Assembly (NCBI GenBank): GCA_033060915.1
Contig: CM065378.1
Span: forward strand, 17,660,001 to 17,724,000
Length of the DNA stretch: 64,000 nucleotides
Reading direction: 5' to 3'
Source: Euryodendron excelsum
Lineage: Eukaryota > Streptophyta > Magnoliopsida > Ericales > Pentaphylacaceae
Part shown: positions 3,876 through 37,861 of the stretch, in pieces
How the letters are laid out: each line of letters begins with the position of its first letter
How positions within the stretch are numbered: position 1 is the stretch's first letter
Position numbers and translations under genes: made by a program
Notes under the pieces: model-generated
Seen by the model: only the letters and a program-made list of their open reading frames with translations
Told to the model about the DNA's origin: nothing
Databases searched by the model: none

Positions 3876-4328
3876 CTATGATCTTTTCCTCTTCAGTCCT
3901 CCGCAGCTTTTACGTTTATTCCTGGAATCTGCATCCTTATCAAGAACCAGTAGATTGATTACTTGATTGCCCACTGAACTCGAAAATTTCAGACAATCCT
4001 GCAAGTCCTCATCACAGGCTATTAAGATCCACAGGTGATCCCCGTCCTCGTACTTCACTTTGAAGCTTCCAAGCTCTAACTCCAGTCTCTTTGCCACTTC
4101 TTTCTTCAATTCAACAAATCCAGATATCAAAGAGAGATGAAATTTTATTATGTCTTCTCGATATGTTGCCTTAAACGTCCTCATATCTTGCCTCGCTGTG
4201 AGCTGTGGCGAAATAGTACTAGTCGCGGCTTGCCTCGGAGCTGGATCATAACACAAAGGCACTCTCGATGCTATCTGAGGTTGTGTAAACACAAGAGCAT
4301 TGGGATTTGGATAAGTAGCCGAAGGAGT
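3876..4328 (-). pseudogene. PB1 domain of locus A, beyond a premature stop
   Basis: This is the continuation of the locus A frame after the TAA at 4331-4329. It stays open for about 150 codons and ends in a basic tail GLKRKRS. It encodes a PB1 domain, the module by which NLPs pair with each other: it opens TFKATYREDIIKF and keeps the acidic stretch KYEDGDHLWILIACDEDL. Paralogue B has a serine codon where A has the stop. Either the domain is lost to translation, or it is made only by readthrough or as a separate product. The absence of any other lesion suggests a recent loss or a sequence error. Confidence 0.75.
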
Positions 4329-7300
4329 TTATTCTTTTTGTTGAAATGCCAATTTAGAGGGACCCCTAGCTGCTTCTCCACTTTTTTCGCAAATAGATAT
4401 TGAAATCGGCAAATCCATAGCAGGATTATTAGGAGGGAAAGAATCATAAGAAGGGTCTTTTATGTTCCCTTCTTCTTTTGAACCATTCTCCACATTCGAC
4501 TGGTTTGAGCCCTCGATAAAATTTGGCAGCAACTCGTTGTGCTCCTGAACGTGCCCAACTATTTCATTCTCTATCCCAGCTTGTCCTGGTTCAGGGGGTT
4601 TAGTGCCTGATGAGTTCCGATGGTTGGATCCAACAGCAACCGGAAGTGAACTGGTAGGACTGAGTGGTTCTTCTGCCGCTTGGACAGATTCATTTACAAG
4701 CTTTGGCTTGAAGAGAGAGCCATTACCATTGTTTTTCCTGCAATGTGGCCACCGAACGATCCCATGGTCCCTATGGATGATGCGCTTAAATGTGGATACA
4801 CTAACTGCATGAGCAAGAATATCTAGATAAGAAAACTGCATTTTTTTCATTGCTTCTGCAAGAGAACTATCCAGCTTCTCCTTGATGAATTAGTATGGTT
4901 AAAAACAAGAGCAAGATTGCAAGCAACATTTAATTAAGCGTCGAGACTTACCACCGAAGTAATCAGCAGTATCTTTACGGCTACGACCAAAATGTTGTTG
5001 GAGATCCGCTAAACTAATAGAACTCCTCGTAGTAACACATTTACTTGCATTTTTCTTCTTTGAATGAGATACTGTAGGGGTGCTCTGATCTTCCCTGACA
5101 CCATGTGTTCTGCTGTCTGTAGCATTAAACTCCGCCGATGATTCTTGTTCACATGAACCAAGCTGCACCATCTCGCCTCCGGTTGGTGAGGCTATTGGCC
5201 GAGGCGAAGATCTAGCAGGTCGACAAGTTTGGATACACAGAGGCCTCGAATCAAGATTCTCATCCATAGACGGACTGAAAACTTCGACCGATACTTCCTT
5301 CGTGGTTGCATTTGCCCCAACATGTGTTATGCTATTTGCAGCATCAAATTCCACCAATGATTGTTGTTCTGATGAACAAAGCTGCGTCATCTCTCCTCCA
5401 GTTGGTGGGCCTATAGGCCGAGTTGAAGATCTGGCAGGATAGGGAATTTGGATACATTGAGGCCTTGGATCAAGATTCTCATCCATAGATGGACCGAAAA
5501 ATTCAACAAACACTTCATTCATTGTTGGATTTGCCCCAACAAAATGTGTTCCACTGGTCGTAGCATCAAATTCCACAAAGGATTGTTGTTCCGACAAACC
5601 AAGCTGCACCATCTCTCCTCCAGTTGGTAAGGCTATAGGCTGAGGTGAAGATCTAGCAGGCCAGGGAATTTGGGTACGTTGAAGCCACGAATCAAAATTT
5701 TCATGCATAGATGGACCGAAAAATTCAACAAACACTTCATTCAATGTTGGATTTGCCCCAACAAAATGTGTTCTGCTGTTCGTAGCATCAAATTCCACAA
5801 AGGATTGTTGTTCTGACAAGCCATGCTGCAGCTGCACCAACTCTCCTCCATTTGGTAAGGCTATAGGCTGAGGTGATGAATCAAGCTGCACAATTCCGAC
5901 TTAGAAATGAAGCTCCTTGATAACACGATATTGATATGCAGAAGGGGGAGAGGACTAACCTGATGAGCAGTCCATGCTCTTAAACTTCTAAGGAACTGTG
6001 TCACTTCCTCTTCAACTTGGATAGACGGAAACACTTGTGTCTTTAGTGGTAAGTTCAAGGGGTGAATCTGCCTATTATCTGTAAGTCCAATAAACTGTGC
6101 GTCTTCGTGAATACTGTGTAACCTAAAATTGATTTTACAGATCTGATCAACAGTTCGCTGCTGAAGTGCAGTATCTCCTCGCCACAGACGTGCTTCAAAT
6201 ATGAACTTATCCAGCACATTATCAGCCTCATATGCTACAGTCTTGAGTTTCCCAAGCAAATGCCGCACCATGTTCATTTCTACTATTTGCTGGTTCTCAG
6301 CATCAGATAATAGAGCATAAGCAGTTTTCAACATTCTACCAAGCCGTTCAATGCCAACTAAAATGCGATTTGTCTGGCTTCCCTTAGCGGTAACTGCAAG
6401 GAGAGAAATGCTTGAGAACTCTGAATTCTCATAAAAGATAACAGAACTGCAAGATTATTCATCGGCAAGTATCATATATATATATATATATATATATATG
6501 TATAGTGGAGAAAAAGGTACCATAACCAACGGAGGTTGATTTAGTTGGTAAATATCGGCCACTTCGCTTGAAGACGCCTAGATTTGATTCTCGCTGCCGT
6601 TCCCGTCTAGTATGTTTCAAAGGCACGTAAGTCCAATTTGATTCTCCCAGCCATTCCCATCTAGTAGGTATCAAAGGCATGTAAGTCCCATATACGTCCG
6701 GCTCGCGTCTTGCCCTGGCCTTGGAATGGGGATAGCATCCCCTAATACTAAACCTTTCTGAACCAAAAATAAATAAATAAATAAATACCATAATAGAAGA
6801 GAACCGAAACCAGAAATTTTGCAGGAAAAGCAAAAAAGACTAGACATCCATAGTTTTTTTTTTTTTTGGCTAACCGGGAGTCCTGCTAGACATACATAGA
6901 TTATCAATAAAGATGGACCATGAATGAATGGTCGACTCCCCACAAAAGTTTTTAAAAAAATTCATGTTAACTGGCAGTTCAAAATCGGCGCAGCCAGATA
7001 ACATACCAAAACAAATCAACAATTTCACTCAATTTTTTTCCCATTGGAGCATTGGAAGCTGAATAAAGGAAAAAAAAAATCAAATATAAGAACAAAAATA
7101 AAAGCAAAAGCCGGAGAAAAAGTAGGCAACATTCAATTCAAACCAACCTAAAGAGTAAAGCATAAATGGCATCTGGGAGTCCAGATTCTAACAATGGGAG
7201 GGGGGCATGAGAGAGAGAGAGAGAGAGAGAGAGATACCGCGGGGGGAGGCGGACGGTGGAGACATGTTGGGAATCGGCAAGGAAGCATCGAAACCGATGT

Positions 7301-7445
7301 GGCCGTCGAAGAACTCCGGTGACGCGGTCTGATCATGCCGTGGCACCACGCCGATACTCCAGGCGGCGGGTGTGGGCGGAGGTGAGTACATGGGCCAGCT
7401 CCTCAAGAGCTCCAGTACAGAATCTTGTTCATCTTGCTGGGACAT
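4329..7445 (-). CDS. Chimeric NLP-like gene: Rx_N-like coiled coil, tandem repeats, RWP-RK (locus A)
   Basis: Exons on the minus strand are 7445-7238, 6393-5960, 5885-4952 and 4804-4329. All have GT-AG borders and matching phases, giving 683 residues before the TAA. Exon 1 gives a leader starting MSQQDEQDSVLELL. Exon 2 (residues 70-214) resembles the Rx_N coiled coil of CNL immune receptors, with LLSDAENQQ, LKTVAYEADNVLDKF and a KINFRLHSIHEDAQFIGL tail. Exon 3 holds tandem ~75-residue repeats, then the first half of an RWP-RK domain (SSISLADLQQHFGRSRKDTA). Exon 4 completes it with VSVSTFKRIIHRDHGIVRWP. RWP-RK proteins bind DNA in the nucleus; the family member nearby (C) is an ordinary NLP. 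The GAF-like region of NLPs is missing. The canonical RWPSRK core reads RWPHCRK. Whether the gene is functional is unknown; the product would be an NLP lacking sensor and PB1 but carrying an NLR-type coiled coil. Confidence 0.75.
5100..5879 (-). repeat. Intragenic tandem repeats, ~75 codons each
   Basis: Three full units of 76, 74 and 73 residues begin at 5879, 5651 and 5429. A partial fourth unit begins at 5210. Each starts near SSPQPIALPTGGEMVQL and contains SEQQSFVEFDAT and FGPSMDENLDPRP. All units are in phase. Gene C has one diverged equivalent just before its RWP-RK domain, so the repeats look like an amplified NLP linker. Confidence 0.85.
6526..6785 (+). mobile_element. SINE in intron 1 of locus A
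   Basis: The insertion is bounded by perfect 8-bp duplications taccataa at 6518-6525 and 6786-6793. It contains box A-like (tagttggtaaatatcgg) and box B-like (agatttgattctcg) motifs of a tRNA-derived pol III promoter, and ends in an A-rich aaataaataaata tail. The paralogous intron in pseudogene B (about 29160-29190) has an uninterrupted empty site, so insertion came after the A/B duplication. Confidence 0.8.
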
Positions 7446-8321
7446 TTTCGGTGCAATCTACCCAGCAACCCCCATCCGCTTCCCTTGTTATATAGAATAG
7501 AAAACAGAGAGTCGAAGAAAGGTAATCAAAAGGTTGAGGGTTCAGTGCGTCTGATCTTAATAATAATAATAATAAAAAGGTTCGGGGTTCAGGGAACCCT
7601 TTTCTTCATTCGTTCATGTATTCACTTCTTCTTTATTATTAATTCTGTGTTGACTAAGAAAAAAATAATAACTTGTGGAGGAAACATAACATAATTAAAA
7701 AAAAAGACAAATTAGAAGGACATCTTGAGATTTCTGATAATAACAGATCGTTCTTTCATAATTGTCGAAACCACACTGACCTTCTCTATGAGTTTTATCC
7801 CACTAACGGCGTTAATGGGGAGAGTATTTTTACTATTTTACCGCTTTAAAAGAAAAAGTCAACAAATTATTTTTCCAGCTCATCTTCATCGTCAACGTGT
7901 TTCCATTACGATTTTTCTTTCTAAATGGTCAGATGCTCGCTTCTCTCTCTCTCTTTTTCGCAGGGCTTCTTTCTCTTAAAAACACCAGTCCGCCACCATA
8001 ATTTTCTCAATTTTTCATCTTCTTCTTCTTTCTCTGTCTCGCTCTCTTTGTAACTTTAATCATTACCACATCCATCACATGAAACCCAGTAGTAGGTGTC
8101 ACCATACCATTCATGGCCATAGCTGGACCAACCACTATCATTGCCCTGTTCCCTCACCAAACCACCTCCCACGCAATGATGAATTTAGAAATTTTTATTA
8201 ATGGTATCATATAGAAACTTAAACACAAATTCTAAAATAAGAGATTAAAAAAATAATATATTAATGCTAAGCTTTTTAACCAAAAAAATTAAAAAAAAAA
8301 ACATGTAAATAAATGTACCCT
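7446..8321. other. 5' flank of locus A, no gene
   Basis: AT-rich sequence. Parts match the flanks of D exon 1 (24.0-24.2 kb) and B exon 1 (29.8 kb), including the ttcttcattcgtt region, so the promoter was duplicated with the gene. A short TAA-type microsatellite lies near 7556-7575. No coding sequence was recognised. Confidence 0.55.
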
Positions 8322-9080: not shown

Positions 9081-11128
9081 ATAACTCAACACGATAACAA
9101 GGGCAACAACAAGAGAAAGAAGCCCGATGACAAGGGTAAGAAGTTTACTAAGAAGGTTGAGACCGACACAGTTGGCATAGAGGCTAAAAAGAAGAGAGTG
9201 CCCACCAAAGGGTTGATGTTTGTTGATGTCAAGATCAATGGCAAGCCCATTCGTGCACTGATTGACACCAATGCCATCCACAACTTTGTTGCTGGACTGA
9301 GGTGGAAAGGCTGGGGTTATCTTTGGAGAAGGACTCTAGCAATATTAAGGCCATGAACTCGGCAGCGTAGCCCATCTATGTTATTGCATGAGCGGTGCCT
9401 ATGAAGGTAAGCTCATGGAAAGGAAAAGCCAACTTTACTACAGTGCTTATGAATGATTTTCAAGCCATCCTTGGGTTGAAATTTTTGAGAAATGCGAAGA
9501 CGACGGTGATGCCATATTCAAATTCAATGTGTGTGATGGGTGAGAAGTTGTGCTTGATCTCAACCATGTCAACCACCAACCGCGAGAAGTTCATTTTGGC
9601 AATGCAACTGAATCAAAGGGCTAAGCGGGGTGAACAGACTTAGGTTGCTGTGTTGAAACTGGATGAGTTCCTTGCGGAAGGGCCGGTACCCACACCAATG
9701 AAGAAGGTATTGAGGCAATTTGCAGATGTCTTTCTGGAGAAGTTGCCATAAGAGTTACCTCCTCATTGGGGAGTTGATCATACTATTGAGTTGGTGCATA
9801 GGGCAAAGCCACTAGCAAGGGCTCCTTCTAGAATGGTTATACCAAAGTTAGAAGAGTTGCAAAAGCAGTTGAAGGAATTACTTGATGCAGGCTTCATTAG
9901 GCCATCCAAGGCTCCCTATGGTGCGCCTGTGTTGTTCCAGAAGAAGCATGATGGTAGTTTAAGGATGTGAATAAACTACCAAGCTCTCAATAAGCTCACA
10001 ATCAAGAATAAGTATCCTATTCCGGGGATTGCGGACTCTTTTGACCAATTGAGTAAGGTAAAGTACTTCACTAAGCTGGACTTGAGATCGGGGTACAACC
10101 AAGTGAGAATTGTTGAGGGTGATGAAGCCAAGACGACTAGTGTCACTCGTTATGGCTCGTATGAGTTTTTAGTCATGCCATTTGGCTTAACAAACACACC
10201 AACGACCTTTTGCACAATGATGAATGAAGTTCTTGATGGGTACCTTGACCAGTTTGTGGTGGTATACATTAATGACATTGTGGCCTACAATGCTATGATG
10301 GAGGAGCATGTGGAACATTTGGCTAAGGTCTTTGCTAGGTTACGGGAACATAAGTTGTATGTAAAGCTTAAGAAATGTGAGTTTGCTAGAGAAAGGATTA
10401 AATTCTTAGGTCATATTGTTGGACATGGCAGAATTCGTATGGATCAGGACAAGGTGAAAGCTATTAAGGAGTAGCAACCGCCAACCAATGTGTCGGAGAT
10501 GCATTCTTTCCTTGGTTTGGCCAACTACTATTGAAAGTTTGTTGAAGACTACTCAAAAATAGCGACATCGTTGACTGAACTATTGAAGAAGGGTAAGGCC
10601 TACATGTGGACTGAAGAGTGCCAACGTGCCTTTACCGAGCTAAAGGAGGCTATGATGAAGGATCTTGTGCTAGCTCTGCCAGATATTGGTAAACCATTTG
10701 AGGTGCAGACGGATGCTTCAGACTTTGCTTTAGGAGGTGATCTATTGTAAGATGGACATCCTATTGCCTTTGAAAGTAGGAAACTTAATGATACCGAATG
10801 TAGATGCACAACACATGAGAAAGAGTTACTTGCAGTTGTGCATTGCTTGTGGATTTGGAGGCATTACTTGTTGGGGACACGTTTTGTGGTCAAGACTGAC
10901 AACATGACAGTTAGTCATTTCTTGACACAGCCCAAGTTGAATGCAAGGCAGGCACAGTGGCAGGAGAAACTGGCTGAGTTTTACTTTGCATTGGAGTACA
11001 AAGCTAGTGCCACTAATCATGTAATTGATGCTTTGAGTCGGCGTGGAGAGTTAGCTGCGTGTCACTACATGGGTACTCTTTCCGCTATCTCTAACAAAAT
11101 TCAGGGACAAATTAAAGCCAATCTAGAC

Positions 11129-23925: not shown

Positions 23926-24034
23926 CATGACACCTCCCCGTCGGTACACCAGGTGGTGGCCCCCGCGGGAATGAGAACATGGGCCAGTTCTTCACGGACT
24001 CCAGTTCGGAACTTTGTTCATCATGCTCGGACAT
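23926..24034 (-). pseudogene. Truncated exon 1 of a third chimeric NLP copy (D)
   Basis: From ATG at 24034 the minus strand reads MSEHDEQSSELESVKNWPMF, clearly related to exon 1 of A (MSQQDEQDSVLELLRSWPMY) and B. The frame runs about 33 codons and is then cut by the chromovirus LTR a few bases on. No other part of copy D was found, so it was lost when or after the retroelement inserted. Confidence 0.7.
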
Positions 24035-25445: not shown

Positions 25446-25862
25446 TTACTCCACTGAACTATCACAGGAGCTCCCAAGGTTGGCCATTACATCATGAACC
25501 AACGGTCTGATTATATTGCTGCTTGACGATCTCGATATATCCATGCACTCCTGTAGGTCTGCGTTGCAGGCTATTGAAACCCATTCATTGTCATCGTCTA
25601 GATATATACTTGAGGTCAAAGGTAACTTCAGCCTCTTTGTCACTTCCTCCTTCAATCTGACAATACCAGAATCCAAAGAAAGCCGAAATCTAACGATATC
25701 TTCTCTGCGCGTTGCTTTTATGGTGACAGTCTTCACTTCTGGCCTGGTTGAAAAATGTGGCACTCTGTCGGGAGTAGCTGGAGTTTCTTAAGGAACCAGT
25801 TCAGAATGTGTAGTGCTTGACCCACCATATTCTGGGACCCTTTCATCCAAAAGAGCCTCTGC
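25446..25862 (-). pseudogene. Fragment of an NLP7-like 3' end (PB1 domain)
   Basis: It closely matches the last part of gene [21 protein letters not shown], then [38 protein letters not shown] and a stop. It differs by a small rearrangement where C has [13 protein letters not shown] and by a stop in the upstream part (VP-stop-ETP). Homology to C ends abruptly at 25862 and SWEET-derived sequence starts at 25863. No RWP-RK part is present. Non-functional. Confidence 0.85.
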
Positions 25863-26543: not shown

Positions 26544-29500
26544 CTATGATCTTTTCCTCTTCAGTCCTCTGCAGCTTTCACAGCTGGAATTGGCAGCCCT
26601 ATCAAAAACCAGTAGATTGATTACTCGATTGCCTATTGAACTTGAAAATTTCTGACAATCCTGCAAGTCCTCATCACAGGCTATTAAGATCCACTGGTGA
26701 TCCTCATGGTCCTCGTACTTGACTTTGACGCAGCCAAGCTCTAACTTCAGTCTCTTTACCACTTCTTCCATCAATTCGTCAAATCCAGATATCAGAGAGA
26801 CGAAATTTTATTGTGTCATCTCCATATGTTGCCTTAAACGTCCACATATCTTGTCTTGCTGTGAGCTGTGGCAGAATAGTACTAGTCGCGGCTTGCCTCA
26901 GAGCTGGATCAGAGCACATAGGCACTCTCGATGCTGTCTGAGGCTGTACTGTAAACCCAAGAGCATTGGGATTTGGATAAGTAGCTGAAGGAGTGGATTC
27001 TTTTTGTTGAATTGCCAATTCAGAGGGACCCCCTGCTGCTTCTCCACTTCCATTGTAAATAGATATTGAAATCGGCAAATCCATAGAAGGATTATTAGGA
27101 GGAGAAGAATCATGAGAAGTAGGGGCTTTTATGTTCTCTTCTTTTGAGCCACTCCCCGCATTCGACTGGCTTGAGCACCCGATAAAATTTGGCAACCCGT
27201 CGTGCTCCTGAATGTGCCCAAATATTTCATTCCCTATGTCAGCCTGTCCATCAGTTGATATTGGTGGCTTGCAGGTGGGTGACATATTCTTTTCTCCCAG
27301 TGGTTCATCAGGGGGTTTAGAGCCACCTGGTGAGTTATGATGGTCGGATCCAACAGCAACTGGAAGTGAACTGGGAGGACTGAGTGGTTCTTCTACGCCG
27401 TGGACAGATTCATTTACAAGCTTTGGCTTGAAGAGAGACCCATTACCATTACACTTGTTTTTCCTGCGATGTGGCCAACGAACGATCCCATGGTCCCTAT
27501 GGATGATGCGCTTAAATGTGGATACGCTAACTGCATGAGCAAGAATAAGTAGATAAGGAAACTGAATTTTTACATTGCTTCAGCAAGAGAAATATCCAGC
27601 TTCTCCTTGCCAGAAGAATTACTTTACTATTGGTTCAAAAACAAGAGCAAGATTGCAAGCAACACTTTACTAACTGTTGAGACTTACCACCCAAGTAATC
27701 AGCAGTATCTTTACGGCTATGGCCAAAATGTTGTTGGAGATCCTCTAAACTAATTGAACTCCTTGTAGTAACACATTTTCTAGCATTTTTCTTCTTTGAA
27801 TGAGATACTGTAGGGGTGCTCTGATCTGCCCTGACATGTGTTCCGCAGTTTGTAGCATTAAATTCCACCGAAGATTCTTGTTCAGATGAACCAAGCTGCA
27901 CCATCTCGCCTCCAGTTGGTGAGGCTATAGGCCGAGGCGAAGATCTAGCAGGTCGGGGAATTTGCATACATTGAGGCCTCGGATCAAGATTCTCATCAAT
28001 AGATGGACCGAAAACTTCAACCGACACTTCCATCATTGTTGAATTTGCCCCAACAACATGTGTTCCGCTGTTTGTAGCATCAAATTCCAACAATGATTAT
28101 TGTTCTGACAAACCATGCTGCAACAACTCTCCTCCAGTTGGTGAGGCTATTGGCCGAGGTGAAGATCCAGCAGGCAGGGGAATTTGGATTCATTGAGGCC
28201 TCGAATCAAGATTCTCGTCAATAGATGGACCGAAAACTTCACCCGACACTTCCATCATTGTTGAATTTGCCCTAACATGTGTTCCGCTGTTTGTAGCATC
28301 AAATTCCAACAATGATTTTTGTTCTGACGAACCAAGATGCCCCATCATCTCTCTTCCAATTGGTGGGGCTATGGGCTCAGGTGATGAACCAAGCTGCACA
28401 ATTCCCACTTAGAAATGAAGCTCCAGGATCATAACATGACATTGATATATGCAGAACGTGAAGAGTACTAACCAGATAAGGAGTCAATGCTCTTAAACTT
28501 GCAAGGCACTGTGCCACTCTCTGTACAAGTTGGATAGACGGAAACACTTGTCTCTTTAGTGGTGATAAGTTGAAGGGGTAAGTCTGCCTAACATCTGTAA
28601 GTTCAACACTGTTATATGCAGCTTCCTCCACTCTAAGTACGATGCAGTTTGCTTCTTTGTGAATTTTGTCTAAAGTTGAATTGAATCAACGGATCTTATA
28701 AGCAGTCTTTGAAAGAAATACCAGTGCGTTTGAGAGGGAGAATAAGAATTGGTCCTTGTTCTTCTTCCTTCGTTTTTGTAACTGCAATTTTTGCCGAAGC
28801 ACTTCAAAGTAGTCATCCAGCGCATCTGCAATGTCATATGCTACAGCCACGAATTTCTGCACCATTTGCCAGTTCTCAGCGTCACATAATAGAGTATAAT
28901 CAGTTTCTTCTACAAAGCTGGTTAAACTCTCTCATGAAACCGCACCATGCGAGATTCAACCCTACAAGGTCAAATTTGTCAGGATTTCAGTACCATGAGA
29001 AGAGAGAAATGCTCGAGAACTCTGAACTCATCATACAAGATATGAAGATAACTGCGTTATGAGGTTAAGAGGGAGTCTATCCATCGGCGAGTATCATATG
29101 TATAGTTCGATTTATAAATAAAAAAATAAGTTCTCTGAGACAAAAAGTACCATATACGTGTATAATAGAGAAAAAGGAACCGTAACAGAAGTGAACCAAA
29201 ACCAGAGCTTTTGCAGGAAAAGCAAAGAAGACTAGAAATACATTAGATTATCAATAAAGATGGACCAAGAATTATTAGTCCACACAGAAAATTTAAAAAA
29301 ATTCAGGTTAACCCGCAGTTCCAAATCGACGCAGCCAGATAACATACCAAAACAAATCAACAATTTCAGTTCAATTTTTTTTTCCCTTTTGAGCATTGGA
29401 ATCTGAATAAAGAAATAAAAAGAAAAAACTTTAAATAGAAGAACAAAAATAAAAGCAAAAGCCAGAGAAAGAGCAGGCAAAATTCAAGCCAAATCAACCT

Positions 29501-29811
29501 AAAGAGTTAAGCATAAACGGCATCTGGGAGTCCAGATTCTAACGATGGAGCGGGCATTAGAGGGGAGAGAGAGAGACGGAATTACCGTAATCTATACCAT
29601 ATGAGAAGTCGGGTGGTGGAGACATGAGGATGTTGGGAGTCGGCAAGCAAGCATCGAAACCGAGGTGGCCGTCATAGAGCTCCGGTGGCGCTGTCTAATC
29701 TTGCCATGGCACCAGGCCGATACCGCAGGCGGTGAGTGCTCGCGGAGGTGAGTACATGGGCCAGTTCCTCACGAGCTCCACTACAGAATCTTGTTCATCT
29801 TGCTGCGACAT
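26544..29811 (-). pseudogene. Chimeric NLP pseudogene (locus B, paralogue of A)
   Basis: It has the same architecture as locus A. Exon equivalents are 29811-29586, about 28990-28473, 28393-27688 and 27530-26544. Exon 1 begins MSQQDEQDSVVELVRNWPMY but has a TAG after VPWQD. The coiled-coil exon keeps LLCDAENWQ, VAYDIADALDDYFEVLRQ and FLFSLSNALVFLSKTAYKIR, then TGA, then FNSTLDKIHKEANCIVL. The repeat exon holds two full units and one partial, with two more stops. The RWP-RK region reads SSISLEDLQQHFGHSRKDTA plus VSVSTFKRIIHRDHGIVRWP and HRRKNK. In PB1 a frameshift separates IKFRLSDIWI from VVKRLKLELGCVKVKYED. At least five lesions make this a pseudogene. It complements A: it keeps the longer coiled coil and a sense codon where A has its premature stop. 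Confidence 0.85.
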
Positions 29812-30930: not shown

Positions 30931-33900
30931 TTACTCTCCTGAACTATCACAAGAGCTCCCGAGGTTGGCCATTACATCATGAACCAACAGTCTGATTATA
31001 TTGCTGCTTGACGATCTTGATATATCCATGCACTCCTGTAGGTCTGCATCGCAGGCTATTGAAACCCACTCATTGTCATCGTCTAGATACTTGAGGTCAA
31101 AGGTACCCACCTCTAACTTCAGCCTCTTTGCCACTTCCTCCTTCAATCTGACAATACCTGAATCCAAAGAAAGCCGAAATCTAATGATATCTTCTCTACG
31201 TGTTGCTTTTATGGTCACAGTCTTCACTTCTGGCCTGGTTGAAAAATGTGGCATTCTGTCCGGAGTAGCTGGAGTTTCTTTAGGAACCAGTTCAGAATGT
31301 AGTGTGTTTGCTCCACCATATTCCCCACCATATTTGGGGACCCTTTCATCCAAAAGAGCCTCTGCTGGGGTACACAGATTTCTCAAATCATGTGAGCTTC
31401 CTGCATCCTCAATCAGCGTTCTTCCAAATGACTCTGGGGGATGTGTTGTGACAAGAGCATCAGGAATTGAGAATGCTGCTGAGAGATTTACTTCTCCTGC
31501 TGGTTGGCATGCCAGTTCCAATGAGCTGCCTAATTTTATGCATTTCTCATGGATAGGAGAAACAACTGCATCATCTGGAGGGGAGGATTCATTTCCAGGG
31601 CTGGGTCTATCCGGGCATGAACCATGGGAAGTAGGGGTCCCAGTGCTCTCCTCTTTTGAGCCACTCCCTGTTTTGGACTGGCTCGACTCTTGGCCCAACT
31701 CAGATAGGAACCCATTTTGCTCATGTATGATTTCCCCTTTACCTACCATCCCATCTCCAAGCATCTGACTTGCTGCCTCAGCCTTTCCCCAACTTACTGG
31801 TATCTTAGGGATTGGCAATTGATTCTTTCCTGTCATAACTTTAAATGGTTTAGAACCAGCTGAATTGTGTTGAGTGGATTCATTTAAACTGGCAGGCCAT
31901 GAGATGGAACCGACAGGGAGAGGAAGTGAACTTGCAGCACCTGGCACAGATTCAATTACACGCTTTATCTTAGAAAGGGAGCGGTTAACCTTGTTGATCT
32001 TCCGAGATGGCCACCGAGAGATCCCATGCTGCCTACATATACGCTTCATTGTAGTAGGACAAACTGTAAAAGTAAGAATTGTGATGAGAACATTCTACTT
32101 CTGTTACAACTGCAAAGATCAGTTCATCTTTAAAACAAAAAATCCAAAATGAAAATAAAATAAGCAAGAGGACAAGCAACAACCATTGAATTTATAAGCA
32201 TACCGCCAAGACTCTTTGCAGCATCTTTAAGACTCCCAGCAAAATATTGCTGAAGTACCTCTAAGCTGATTGTTTTCTCAGCTTTTCCACGTTTTCTCTC
32301 CGATTTTTTGCTCGTGTCTTCATGCTCCAGAAAGGAAACAGCATTTTGGACTCCACCTGCACCACCAACACTCCCTCCACTGTTCATAGCATCAGCTTCG
32401 ATCCTTAGCAGCGGCTCCAGTGAATCAAGATGCACCATCTCTGCTACATTTGGTAAAGCACCAGAGCCAAGTGGAGATATTACATTTTGGCATATGCTAA
32501 CATGTTCAAGTACTGAATCACGTTTCTCATCTGTGCAAGCTTTAATAATTTCAATGCATTTCCACTCTTCTTCAAGTTCTTTACCAGACGCAACTTTAAG
32601 ACTCTGAAAGTGCTGCTTCATGGTTACCAATAGTGTGTCCAAGAATGTCCATTGTATATTGCCCCTGATGTTAGGGGGAAGAAAGAACTCTAGAATATAA
32701 TCATCATCCCCAGTGTGAGTGCTCTGTAAGCAGATTGCAAAAGAGCTAGTTAACCCAAACATACGTGCATAATGAACTAAGGGGTACTCAGTTTTGCCAA
32801 ACTGAGTAATATCTTCACAGAAGCATGAGTTTTGGGATGCAAATGCCCGCCCTGCAACCCCCTGACCCTTTTGTAGGTGATGTTCAGCACAGGCCTCCCT
32901 GAATCCCCACATGTGAGCATCTACAATGTAGAAAGCTACATCAGTTGTGGACATGCAGACTTGTCCCATGCAGCTGCCATCAAAGCTACTGCAGCTCTTC
33001 TTCAAACCGCCCCCATAGGCTACAACACTGCGATGTCTGCATGGAACCCAGGTCTGAGCCAGAGGTAGTTTGTGAGTTTCACATACCACTGTCAATATCT
33101 CCAAGATTTCAGCCAGCGCATTTTGGCGACCTTCATTGCAAATCTGGTTTGCAAGCACATTAATTTCACGCATTCATGTGAACAGAAAATTGATTTTCAA
33201 ATTATAGTTGCTGCTTACCTGCATGGTTGGATGATCCAAAATCTCTGAACTTTTCAAATTCACTGCCTGCAGGTAAACTGAATTATGTAAACTGAGGAAT
33301 CTTGAAAGGTTGGCATGAGAAATAATTACGAAAGAGCATACAAGTAATAGTACTAAATGGAAGCATCAGGCACCATCTCATGAAGACCAAGATGGATATG
33401 CATGGTTCATGCCACTAGAATTAGTTATATTTACTCCATCATTTATCTGATTCCAGTAAGAACACAATAGCTTTTATCTCTCCAGCTGATGAATCACTAA
33501 AACATCAAAGAAAACATGAATAAAAGAGGCATATCTGATCACAGATCTTGTTTACCAATCAAGTCCTACAAACCCACAACATTAGAAAATGAAAGAAGAC
33601 AAATGCAAGAGCAAGACTGCCAGTAATGGAAAAGTATGGAAACCGGTTGTGTAAATGACTTCTACACAGTTCAAGCCAGGGAGAAGTGTCTCTTGTTGAA
33701 GATAATGCGCATGGAATTTTGTGACATATAACAAAGAAGGAGCTGTTTCTACCCATTTAAGTAGACAATACTAAGATTATGAGGACACCAATCATCCAAA
33801 ATAATAATTTTACTAAAAGCCATGTCCTCATATCAACAGTTGTCATCATTGCAGACCATAATCTTTTCTGCCCATTTAGGAGAGATGTGGAGCAGGAGAG

Positions 33901-36900
33901 ACCTTATATACTAGCCAGGGCAATGGCAAACCTCAGAGGCCTGGTATATCCCTATTTCCCCAGGACAGCCCATGGGGGCCCTCCTTTACAGTAACACTGC
34001 TTCCACATCCAATAAGAGGATAATGAAATTCCCACACCCTTTTTGTAAAATTTCTCAAGCATGATTGAGGTCATGGGTTTGACTTGCCCTCTCCCTCCCA
34101 TGGCTTTGGCTTCCAGTGTACGCAAAAAACAAATTAACAAAAAAAAATCCCAAACCAACCTACAATTCGATTATGTTCAACTATCAAGACATTACCCTTG
34201 ATGATAGGAAGTCTATACCTATTCATTAAGTGTTGAATCAATATGTGTGATCATGTCTAGGAAGCATGAACACTTCTAAAAGAATGCCGTGTCTGTGTTG
34301 GACAGGTTTCGGATACATATATTTCTCGGACAGGCCAATTAGTGTATCCTAAATTTTTGTTGATTTATTTTTCTATGGACACGCCCAGAACACGCTGGAG
34401 ACACATATCTATTACTTAATCGCACATGAAACACATTGTAAGTATACATTGTAAACTTGTTTTCATCATATTTTATGCTAAATTATGATTAAATTAAGGA
34501 TTGAACATGTTTTTCATGTTGAATTAGTATTATTTTTTTATATTTTTGGAGGTTTGTGGATGTAACATTTATATACATAGCTAATAAAATATATGAAACA
34601 TATATTTTTTGCCGTATCCCAGCCGTGTCTGTGTTCTCATTTTTTTAAAATTATCGTGTCTCGTGTCCATACGCGTGTCCATATCCATACGTGTATCAGT
34701 GTCCATCCTTCATAGAATCATGTTATGTAAATACCTTGGCACAAGGGTAAGGTTGTTGCATTACGACCAGGGCGTCATGAGTTCGAAACCCGAAGATAGC
34801 CTCTCAAGCGAGGGGCTAGAGCTGCCTACATCTGATGCCTCCCAGATCCTCAGTGGCGGTAGCCCCGTGGACTAGATTACCCTTTTTTTATGTTAGATAA
34901 ACATCACAACTATAGTCCTCCCTAATTTAATATATGTAAGGCCCGCACTAATGTATATATGTATAAACATTATAGACATAGGCAATTATCTGCTTTCTGC
35001 CATATCAACAAAAAAGTGATTAGATGCTACAATCAACAATCAAGATAAATAAATAAGAAATATTGTGAGGAGAATGGTTAATCCAGTGGTAGTGGCAGCC
35101 CCACCCATGCCTGTGGTCATAGGTTTGATTCACCCTTCCCCTCCCCATCCCCCAAGGGCTTTGGCAATCCGATGTACCTAAAACAAAAAAGAAATATTGG
35201 AAAAAGGAAATATTGTTCCTCGTGTGTCAATCTCAACATGTGAGAGAAGATTGCAAAAGAAAAGTAATAACATCTATATTGCCCATTGAGGGAGATCTTC
35301 AAAATCCAAGTCAATATCCTTTTTTTATTAATTTCCAAGAGAACGCTTCTGGATATATGAAATGTCCAATATATGTGATCCGTCATAAAAATGAAATACT
35401 CAATATATACAATCCATATGTCTCACCAACCTTGTTTGTGACTAGTAATAGCCAATCAAGGTGCCCAGCAATCCCTTCTAATAAACTTAGTGACTTGTCC
35501 TGCTGTTCTTATAATAGTAACTATGAAACAAGTAATGATGAAGGAAGACGCCACTCACTAGCATTGACACATTTCTACTAATCCATTTTTCATTACATGC
35601 ATGATGCAGCCTAGTTGTGCAAGATTCTTACAGAAATAGCAAATTGAGTCATTACAATTCTACTATGAATCCTTTTTTTTCTAATTAAATTGCAATATTT
35701 ACTTACTTTTAGATCTTTTTATGGTTGTAGGGATGAAATTTTGGGGTTTTAAGTTGTTACGGTATTGGGCAGGGCAGTTTATAGGGTGAATGAGTTATGC
35801 ATTTGTGCTTCCTCTCATATTCTCTTTTCTTCTTTTTGGTTCTATCCATCTTTCTCTCAAAAAGGAAATAAACAGGAAGAAAGAACATATTTATTCGCTC
35901 CTCACATGTTTGAATAAATACTCATGAGAGCTTGGTTGTATCAGGAAACCATTAAGACTATGCTTTAAATCGACCATCAATATAACTAATTATGATTGAA
36001 TAAATAGAATGAACAATATAATTTCTCAAAATGATCCCTGTAGCAACTCATATTTCAGGATAAGCCGATTGCAGAACATAACAGGAAACTGAAATGCAGA
36101 ATATGCATGTAGGAAGGGGATGAGGGAACCAACCTGAAGTGCTTTGCAGACTTTGTCAACTTCAGGAGCATAGTGAATCTTCTGTGAAGTCATTATGAGC
36201 TCAAGTACACCAATGCAGGACTGCCCAGAAGCTTCAAACACGGGCAAAGCTAAGGTTCCTCTAACATTGTAATGCAGAGCATGATTAAGACGTGGATACT
36301 CTTTGCTTGAGTAGTACTGCACATTTGGAGACCATTCCGGTAATTTTTGCCGAAATACACGGCCAGGAAGCCCAAGGTCTCCATCACTCTCCCCATCGGC
36401 AGAAAACATATACATCACAGAGGCCATTCTATACTGATGAAGCCCATTACTGTGTGGGTCAAGAACGAAGGGTTGCCCAGAAGTTGTGAGTACATACCGA
36501 CCCCCCTTTTTCACAGGTGCCCAAACCTGAGCTAGAACATGTTCAGTTGATTCTTTTAAGTATCGAAGTGCCTGGGTCATCCTCTCCTTAATCACACAAG
36601 ACCCATCTGGATAATCTAGTGGTGTCAATCCCAAAAACGGTGGAGGTAGCCTTCTTTTATCACCAGTTCCAGCTGGACTTTCAGCTATTGAATTAGGATT
36701 ACCTGTATTGTCTCAAAATTCTTAAATTAAAAGCATATAAATCAAACTCTAATAGAATAAGCAAGCAATGCAACTATCAACTCTAAACAATACTGCTAGT
36801 GATTCAAGGAAACAAGTGATATATGATCTGAAAACAGCCAAGATACTGTAGATAAACCAAGCAAACAAAATGAACAATATTCAGATAAACCAATAAATTC

Positions 36901-37861
36901 CAGCTTCGAAGCCCAAGATACCTGTAAGGGAGTAATTCCCCATTAGAAAGGTAAACTATAAGTTTGCAATTGAAACTTGAAAGTCCAGGGAGTGGCAGAG
37001 GGAAAAGAGAAAGCCTTTAGCACTGTGTTTGATTTGTTTGTTTGTCTAGAAGCCAGAAGAAAATGAAAGGAAAAAACAGAATTGAAGCTTTACCGCCCCT
37101 CCTCTTTTGATGGTGGTGGCTGTATAATTCTCCAAGGAGAAGCTCAACTGTCTAATTACCACTACAAAGGGGTCAGGGGCCATCGTAAACATAGATATAG
37201 GGTCTCATATTCCATTCTGTTATCTTCTCTGTTGGTTCCTAAGCATTCAAACAGAGCTTAATAAAGATAAACAGATAAAAAAGAAGCTATTCCTTATAAC
37301 TAGTAAAGTTCTGTGCTAAAACGCATAAGTTATGATTAGAAATAAAGCAACCCATATAGCGAATTTTTCAGCCTCTAAGAAATAGAAAATATCTGAAGTA
37401 ACAAAAAATTATAGGTTTTTCGAATATATCGATTCAGAAAAAACCAAAAGTTAGCGACATTAAATTGAAAAAACGATCTAATCAATGAAAAAATTAAACT
37501 AAGCAGTCTCGCAACAAATAAAATACAAGCCAAGACTTCGATAAAGCTCACTGGATATAAGTCTTGAGTAGTCGGGGAGTCGAAGACCTCCGGCGAGCGT
37601 CGACGCAGCATTTCCGGCGAGTTTATCGTCGTTATCGTCCGAAAAGGTCCAGAGTGGAGAGCACGGTTGCTCGGAGGACGATAGAAAAAACGGCGACATC
37701 GGGTTGGAGGAGAACATCTGATCGAACGGCCAGGGAGCTTCCAGATCGAGATCGAGATCCATCAGACACTCTCTCTCCGGTTCCACCACCGTGTGCGGTG
37801 TAGTGGTCAGCTCCCTTGCCTTGGGAGGGAAAGTCTGGTTTTCTTCCTCGGCTTCGGACAT
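30931..37861 (-). CDS. NIN-like protein, NLP6/7 type (gene C)
   Basis: A nuclear transcription factor of the family that activates nitrate-responsive genes in plants. Minus-strand exons 37861-37552, 36702-36134, 33266-33219, 33143-32204 and 32063-30931 join in phase with GT-AG borders to give 999 residues. An in-frame ATG at 37897 would add 12; I chose the inner one because MSEAEEEN and the following [13 protein letters not shown] and [11 protein letters not shown] resemble NLP7 N-termini. The N-terminal half has the GAF-like regulatory region ([48 protein letters not shown]). The RWP-RK domain (about 599-650) reads [20 protein letters not shown], then [17 protein letters not shown]1 (about 902-985) starts [13 protein letters not shown] and has the acidic YLDDDNEW motif. 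The 48-nt third exon lies between a large intron carrying SINEs and a 75-nt intron. No lesion was found; it appears functional and is the likely parent of the fragment at 25446-25862. Confidence 0.94.
34060..34137 (+). mobile_element. SINE fragment in NLP C intron 2
   Basis: It has a box B-like catgggtttgacttgccc followed by ccatggctttggcttccagt and an A-rich tail. It matches the 3' part of the SINE at 35066. No box A or target duplication was identified, so it is probably truncated. Confidence 0.45.
34285..34715. repeat. GTGTCC-rich foldback repeat (copy 1)
   Basis: Ends rich in gtgtccgtg / ggacacg motifs in opposite orientations surround an AT-rich centre. Related sequences occur at 55792-56095 and 58490-58760. 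It is probably a dispersed MITE family. Confidence 0.5.
34735..34890 (+). mobile_element. SINE in NLP C intron 2
   Basis: Box A-like tggcacaagggtaaggttg and box B gagttcgaaaccc are spaced as in a tRNA-derived promoter, and the body ends in a T-rich stretch. Flanks tgttatgtaaa and tgttagataaa may be a diverged target duplication. It lacks a foldable acceptor stem, so it is not a tRNA gene. Confidence 0.65.
35066..35188 (+). mobile_element. SINE with 11-bp target duplication in NLP C intron 2
   Basis: Box A-like taatccagtggtagtggc and box B-like ataggtttgattcaccc are followed by a short A-rich tail. It is bounded by perfect duplications aagaaatattg at 35055-35065 and 35189-35199. Confidence 0.8.

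Follow-up and report, generated by a model that had tools for sequence, protein, structure and literature searches.

Has an NLP-type transcription factor gene taken up the coiled coil of an immune receptor, and, if so, is its product a working regulator? Integrated domains are familiar as parts that NLRs have gained, and the locus considered here would run the other way. It lies in a 64,000-nt stretch of the Euryodendron excelsum genome (contig CM065378.1, positions 17,660,001 to 17,724,000 of the forward strand), which we refer to as the window. There, the initial annotation had placed an Rx_N-like coiled coil between an NLP-like leader and a linker-RWP-RK-PB1 body at one locus (A), with a paralogue of the same order (B) nearby. 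Coordinates below are those of the window (Table 1).

The predicted gene model of locus A has GT and AG borders at every intron, and the single consistent splice phase first proposed for it holds, with the four exons joining into an open frame of 683 codons. Exon 1 ends with one codon base over, exon 2 is 434 nt long and exon 3 opens a new codon. Because of the length of exon 2, skipping it would shift the frame, and exon 2 is therefore needed for the frame of the predicted product. An acceptor near 6446 was considered as an alternative start of exon 2 and rejected, as it gives the wrong phase. Intron 1 of A also carries an insertion of about 220 nt with an imperfect direct repeat (6760-6530), possibly a small mobile element, which is not in B.

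Table 1. Features of loci A and B and of the adjacent NLP gene, in window coordinates.
Feature	Position	Strand	Basis or remark
Locus A, whole	7445-4329	minus	Four GT-AG exons giving a 683-residue open frame
Locus A exon 1, NLP-like leader (MSQQDEQDSVLELLRSWPMYSPPP...)	7238..7445	minus	Open frame and GT donor
Locus A intron 1 end, resembling sequence shortly 5' of the CNL start codon	6394..6450	minus	Word match and alignments
Locus A exon 2, captured CNL coiled coil, then NLP-like tail	5960..6393	minus	Pfam and DNA alignment
Coiled coil of locus A exon 2	~6393-6055	minus	
NLP-like tail of locus A exon 2	~6054-5960	minus	
Locus A exon 3, linker (four units of ~75 aa), then RWP-RK first half	4952..5885	minus	Pfam RWP-RK match
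Locus A exon 4, RWP-RK second half (RWPHCRK) and C-terminal linker	4329..4804	minus	TAA stop at 4331-4329
PB1 domain beyond the in-frame stop of A	3879..4328	minus	Pfam E 1.8e-16; open over 150 codons
Locus B, broken tandem copy, order as in A	26544..29811	minus	tblastn within the window and DNA alignments
Locus B leader	29811-29606	minus	
Locus B coiled coil	28966-28573	minus	
Locus B tail	to 28472	minus	
Locus B linker	28396-27686	minus	
Locus B exon 4	27531-26998	minus	
Locus B PB1	26994-26547	minus	Frameshift near 26795 (2-nt difference)
NLP6/7-type gene beside B, apparently intact	30931..37861	minus	GAF_NLP, RWP-RK, PB1; exon borders approximate

Both domains named in the initial annotation were recovered by Pfam at the residues expected of them. 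Rx_N (PF18052), anticipated at residues ~75-185 of the A protein, matched at 84-141 (E 9.2e-10; 38.9 bits against a cut-off of 27.7; E 6.3e-11 with exon 2 alone), and RWP-RK (PF02042), anticipated at ~500-550, matched at 503-546 (E 7.8e-11; 42.2 bits against a cut-off of 29.3). The Rx_N match spans profile positions 27-83 of 93; little of helix 1 is left in the coiled coil, and a loop of 18 codons is missing. A stretch that resembles the EDVID motif of CNLs, EADNVLD, has been kept. In the 683-residue protein, Pfam searches to a maximum E of 10 gave no match to GAF_NLP (PF22922), NB-ARC, LRR or PB1. A single-sequence structure model of exon 2 comprised four helices at low confidence (mean pLDDT 66, pTM 0.60); Foldseek returned no match to it at E 0.001, and the best 50 rows were unrelated helical proteins mixed with Sr35 (two entries) and NRC3 (one). 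A search of PDB sequences matched the NRC2 coiled coil weakly (E 0.0028), and one with the RWP-RK part returned nothing useful.

The origin of the coiled coil is clearer at the DNA level. When exon 2 was searched against the genome, 111 of 130 scored candidates matched, and the best after A itself include seven loci on contig C11 (E 7e-11 to ~2e-6) and one on C23; the corresponding piece of B scored E 7.6e-6. Four of the seven C11 loci have open frames of 1200-1300 aa, and a fifth has one of 1393 aa. Ten CNL-type loci of the 111 matches were compared with A and B as DNA. Locus A is 76% identical to L012 over 159 ungapped nt (E 6e-30), 75% identical to L015 and 73% identical to L014, the locus on C23, while B is 68% identical to L015 over 430 gapped columns (E 2e-47). 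L015 encodes Rx_N (E 1e-18) and NB-ARC (E 2e-52); the frame of L012 is broken after 153 codons. A and B align with the CNLs from a point shortly 5' of the CNL start codon through the whole coiled coil. The alignment stops short of NB-ARC, at the HPF codons; the VGRD with which NB-ARC begins follows a few residues later. Beyond the HPF codons, A and B share sequence that is not CNL. Since both this junction and the sequence after it are common to A and B, capture occurred once, before the two copies split.

The upstream side of the captured piece is legible almost base by base. Immediately before the exon 2 acceptor of A lies an exact 17-base word common to L012 and L015, where it stands ~40 nt upstream of the CNL ATG; in 200 shuffles the longest shared word was 14 bases, and B has 11 bases of the word. 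A has no counterpart of the CNL start codon, which appears to have gone in a deletion between TCTCT repeats. The CNL sequence SLLAA is written TCTCTCCTTGCAGC, and the matching CTCTCCTTGCAG in A is the acceptor of exon 2, from which A reads on in the CNL frame. Relative to L015, A has lost 13 codons around helix 1 and the 18 codons of the loop; the latter are missing as gaps of 2 nt and 52 nt, which together remove whole codons and so leave the frame of A intact. Whether there is a third gap, of ~36 nt, varies with the alignment. As far as these alignments can be read, the captured piece is the end of a CNL 5' leader together with the coiled coil, and it pre-dates the A/B duplication. The original proposal that an NLR coiled coil was grafted in place of the sensor region of an NLP is borne out by homology to a donor-like CNL family, with approximate break points.

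Locus B repeats the order of parts that was claimed for it, as a broken copy. Four in-frame stops interrupt it, one each in exon 1 and the coiled coil and two in the linker; its PB1 is frameshifted, and it lacks an AG where A has the exon 2 acceptor. An Rx_N profile match had been expected for exon 2 in either paralogue; it was found in A, and the coiled coil of B gave no Pfam match to Rx_N at E 1, although its CNL origin is visible in the DNA. The linker consists of units of ~75 residues, four in A and three in B, the 219-nt gap between the copies being one unit, and its first part in A resembles the region that follows the GAF domain in NLPs. Similarity between A and B begins only near 7473, and the 75-nt comparison of the 5' flanks gives 43% identity. 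Because the copies share the 3' junction and differ by ~7-15% elsewhere, an assembly accident is unlikely, as the initial annotation had argued.

The picture of an intact linker-RWP-RK-PB1 body did not survive. An in-frame TAA precedes PB1 in A, where B has TCC at the same codon; the PB1 domain of A sits behind this stop, so that the product as read lacks it, and B is broken. The RWPxRK signature, itself of recognized importance, reads RWPxxRK in both copies (RWPHCRK in A, RWPHRRK in B) and is one residue longer than the RWPSRK of the neighboring NLP. One further residue has been added just before it (IHRDHG in A and B, CRQHG in the neighbor). That neighboring gene matches GAF_NLP (E 1.2e-77 and 2e-8) and the second half of RWP-RK (E 1.3e-10), and its PB1 was recognized by similarity to the PB1 of A (E 1.5e-25). 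Among the 120 listed of its 1154 database matches, the best (76% identical) is a Davidia involucrata protein with all three domains. Between A and B, the minus strand holds an NLP6/7-type PB1 end fragment and a leader-only fragment (MSEHDEQSSELESVKNWPMFS) at 25542-25778 and 23951-24034, which are further remains of tandem duplication. Elsewhere in the window, the plus strand carries a reverse-transcriptase fragment (9971-10471; PF00078, E 4e-31) and an exon of a SWEET/MtN3-type sugar transporter (1984-2499; PF03083, E 3e-20).

A query of linker and RWP-RK found no third copy of the chimera in the 1.06-Gb genome at E 0.1. Of its 15 matches at that level, five fell in A, five in B and one in the neighboring NLP; the remaining four were weaker and lay on C21 (two), C22 (one) and C23 (one). 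The genome has at least 34 RWP-RK matches, and in the stretches around 20 of these neither the leader nor the coiled-coil exon of A matched at E 0.01. The GAF part of an NLP matched in 15 of the 20, which are therefore NLPs of the usual kind. Of the at least 34 matches, C21 has nine and C5 has four, and 11 of these 13 have a GAF part close by; they form an expanded set of NLP genes.

Outside the species, a protein search with A identified 12 relatives, 11 from Camellia and one from Vaccinium, the last without an RWP-RK match. By Pfam, Rx_N is absent from all 12. A CNL coiled-coil profile run on a set of 14 sequences scored A at E 7e-19 and the best of the relatives at E 0.83. Other parts of A are widely present in the Camellia proteins: an A-like leader in nine of the 11 (E 4e-7 to 3e-3 in a set of 12), an SSPxPIAL-type linker and a Pfam RWP-RK match in all 11, and a Pfam PB1 match in four. 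Searching with residues 70-213 of A, none of 164 candidates, all of ~376-1195 aa, matched at E 0.01. These relatives thus have other parts of A in common with it and lack the coiled coil.

Whether the chimera was ever translated can be approached through the differences between its two copies. In the coding exons up to the stop of A, leaving aside the coiled coil and the exon 2 tail, all 11 A/B indels are multiples of three; of the 11 counted in introns and the 3' flank, four are (Fisher p 0.004). This count omits gaps at segment ends, a 3-nt gap in the 5' flank near 7459, the coiled coil, the exon 2 tail (3 and 6 nt) and the PB1 part (three of four multiples of three), and takes intron 1 in its 5' part only. 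Looser alignments add end gaps of 1, 2 and 11 nt, give 228 in place of 219, and make five of 16 noncoding gaps multiples of three. Within the coiled coil, some A/B indels, including ones of 31 and 5 nt, break the frame, and B has a 5-nt gap relative to the CNLs. At 0.06 changes per site, simulated neutral change starting from A, over an assumed branch length, left all 683 codons without a stop in 1.1% of 4000 runs; at 0.03 it did so in 10.5%. From the frame-keeping indels and the 683 open codons of A, we infer that both copies were protein-coding for part of their history.

Amino acid change between the copies is close to neutral. Identity is 87-88% in introns and 85-93% in exon parts outside the coiled coil, where five regions pooled give a pN/pS of 0.94. 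By region, dN/dS is 1.19 in exon 1, 0.93 in exon 4 and 0.79 in the PB1 part, and it falls to 0.36 at the end of exon 3 with the first half of RWP-RK (p 0.04 for one of several regions tested; pN/pS of that half, 0.38). All 16 differences in the exon 2 tail are nonsynonymous. For the coiled coil, five pairs of CNLs have omegas of 0.27-0.45; comparison with CNLs gives 0.67-0.90 for A (five CNLs) and 0.57-0.85 for B (three), and A and B compared with each other give 1.44, a value not distinguishable from 1 (p 0.25). By these omegas, the captured coiled coil has not been constrained to its immune-receptor sequence. The lesions, one stop in A and at least five in B, do not differ significantly (p 0.22 for 1 of 6). 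Frame-keeping indels apart, a near-neutral pN/pS also fits a pair of long-dead genes.

How then should locus A be read? The chimera of an NLP-like gene and a CNL coiled-coil exon is real. It has practically no chance of being a coiled-coil-rich NLP N-terminus mistaken for Rx_N: the low-confidence helical model and the lack of Foldseek matches at E 0.001 would suit such an error, but the DNA homology to CNL-type loci in two copies (E down to 2e-47) contradicts it, and Rx_N in A lies above the Pfam cut-off while the coiled coil is absent from the 12 relatives. A more serious objection is that both genes are dead and in frame by chance, exon 2 never having been spliced in. The state of B, the near-neutral change in A, an acceptor lying in former CNL coding DNA and the out-of-frame coiled-coil indels all speak for this, yet chance would also have to explain a junction common to A and B, an exon 2 that restores the phase between exons 1 and 3, indels that keep frame in the other exons, and a tail with its donor running on in the same exon as the coiled coil; we regard it as quite improbable.

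At the other extreme, A may be a working gene for a PB1-less RWP-RK protein whose coiled coil serves dimerization or contact with CNLs or helper NLRs, coupling immunity to NLP targets or acting as a dominant-negative NLP. The 683 open codons, proper borders on all four exons, the low ratios in the first half of RWP-RK (with the multiple-region caveat given above) and the retained EADNVLD stretch would agree with this, but near-neutral change in the pooled regions, an unconstrained coiled coil, the altered RWPxRK signature, and the loss of helix 1, the loop and PB1 make it unlikely. A bolder version, reverse domain integration, in which a nutrient-type transcription factor swapped its sensing region for an NLR coiled coil with an acceptor made from NLR codons, and the product of A is a live regulator dimerizing with, or held by, coiled-coil immune partners, strikes us as doubtful, with a small chance of being right. 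The earlier suggestion that the product may link immune coiled-coil partners to RWP-RK targets likewise is not supported, amino acid change being near neutral and the coiled coil unconstrained. A dimerizing PB1-less regulator is possible. Most likely, A is weakly constrained and is following B into decay, and does not work as an immune-linked regulator. On the simplest reading, the chimera has no strong use: one of its copies has died and the other has already lost PB1.

We therefore favor, as the probable account, a lineage-specific chimeric gene that once was coding and is now relaxed or decaying. The capture and its route into a spliced exon are established to the extent that DNA allows. 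A piece of a C11-type CC-NB-LRR gene, from upstream of the start codon to the end of the coiled coil, lies within an NLP-like gene without a recognizable GAF, ahead of the linker-RWP-RK-PB1 body. Its SLLAA codons supply CTTGCAG, the splice acceptor in the only frame-keeping model found, so that exon 2 is predicted to keep the coiled coil in the frame it had in the CNL. Tandem duplication of the chimera produced A and B. If A is translated, a helical segment, possibly an oligomerization part, would replace nitrate sensing, followed by an RWP-RK domain with an altered signature and no PB1. The locus matters as a case of an NLR piece that moved into another gene, its capture still legible at the base level, including coding sequence turned splice acceptor. 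Expression of A, if it occurs, would make the locus a natural experiment on the ability of a coiled coil lacking NB-ARC to rewire a transcription factor; otherwise the locus is still a clear two-copy record of the birth and decay of a chimeric gene.

In the open-access literature, judged by the titles listed and with supplements aside, we found no description of a fusion of an NLR coiled coil with RWP-RK, and no paper on RWP-RK with an NLR integrated domain. The term 'RWP' does not occur in the main texts of PMC4759884, PMC7422411 and PMC12787737, and PMC10011142 uses coiled-coil in an unrelated sense.

Among known systems, NLPs of the NLP6/7 clade resemble A in the position of the RWP-RK intron, the PB1 downstream, traces of leader and linker, and a tandem neighbor; A differs in having a coiled coil where they match GAF_NLP, a PB1 behind a stop, and RWPxxRK rather than RWPxRK. 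The NLP-like proteins of Camellia (e.g., LOC114290060) share linker, leader, RWP-RK and, in some, PB1 with A, but are without the coiled coil, and nine of the 11 have two RWP-RK stretches (P0010 and P0011 have one). The CC-NB-LRR receptors of C11 (L015 and the similar L012) have the source-like coiled-coil sequence from upstream of the ATG, whereas the A protein has no NB-ARC and part of its coiled coil is deleted. A further parallel is that of the NLR-IDs, in which transcription factor domains such as WRKY are fused to NLRs (e.g., RRS1-WRKY; PMC4759884), likewise joining immune-receptor and transcription factor parts. In A, which lacks NB-ARC, the direction is reversed: here it is the transcription factor-type gene that took the NLR piece.
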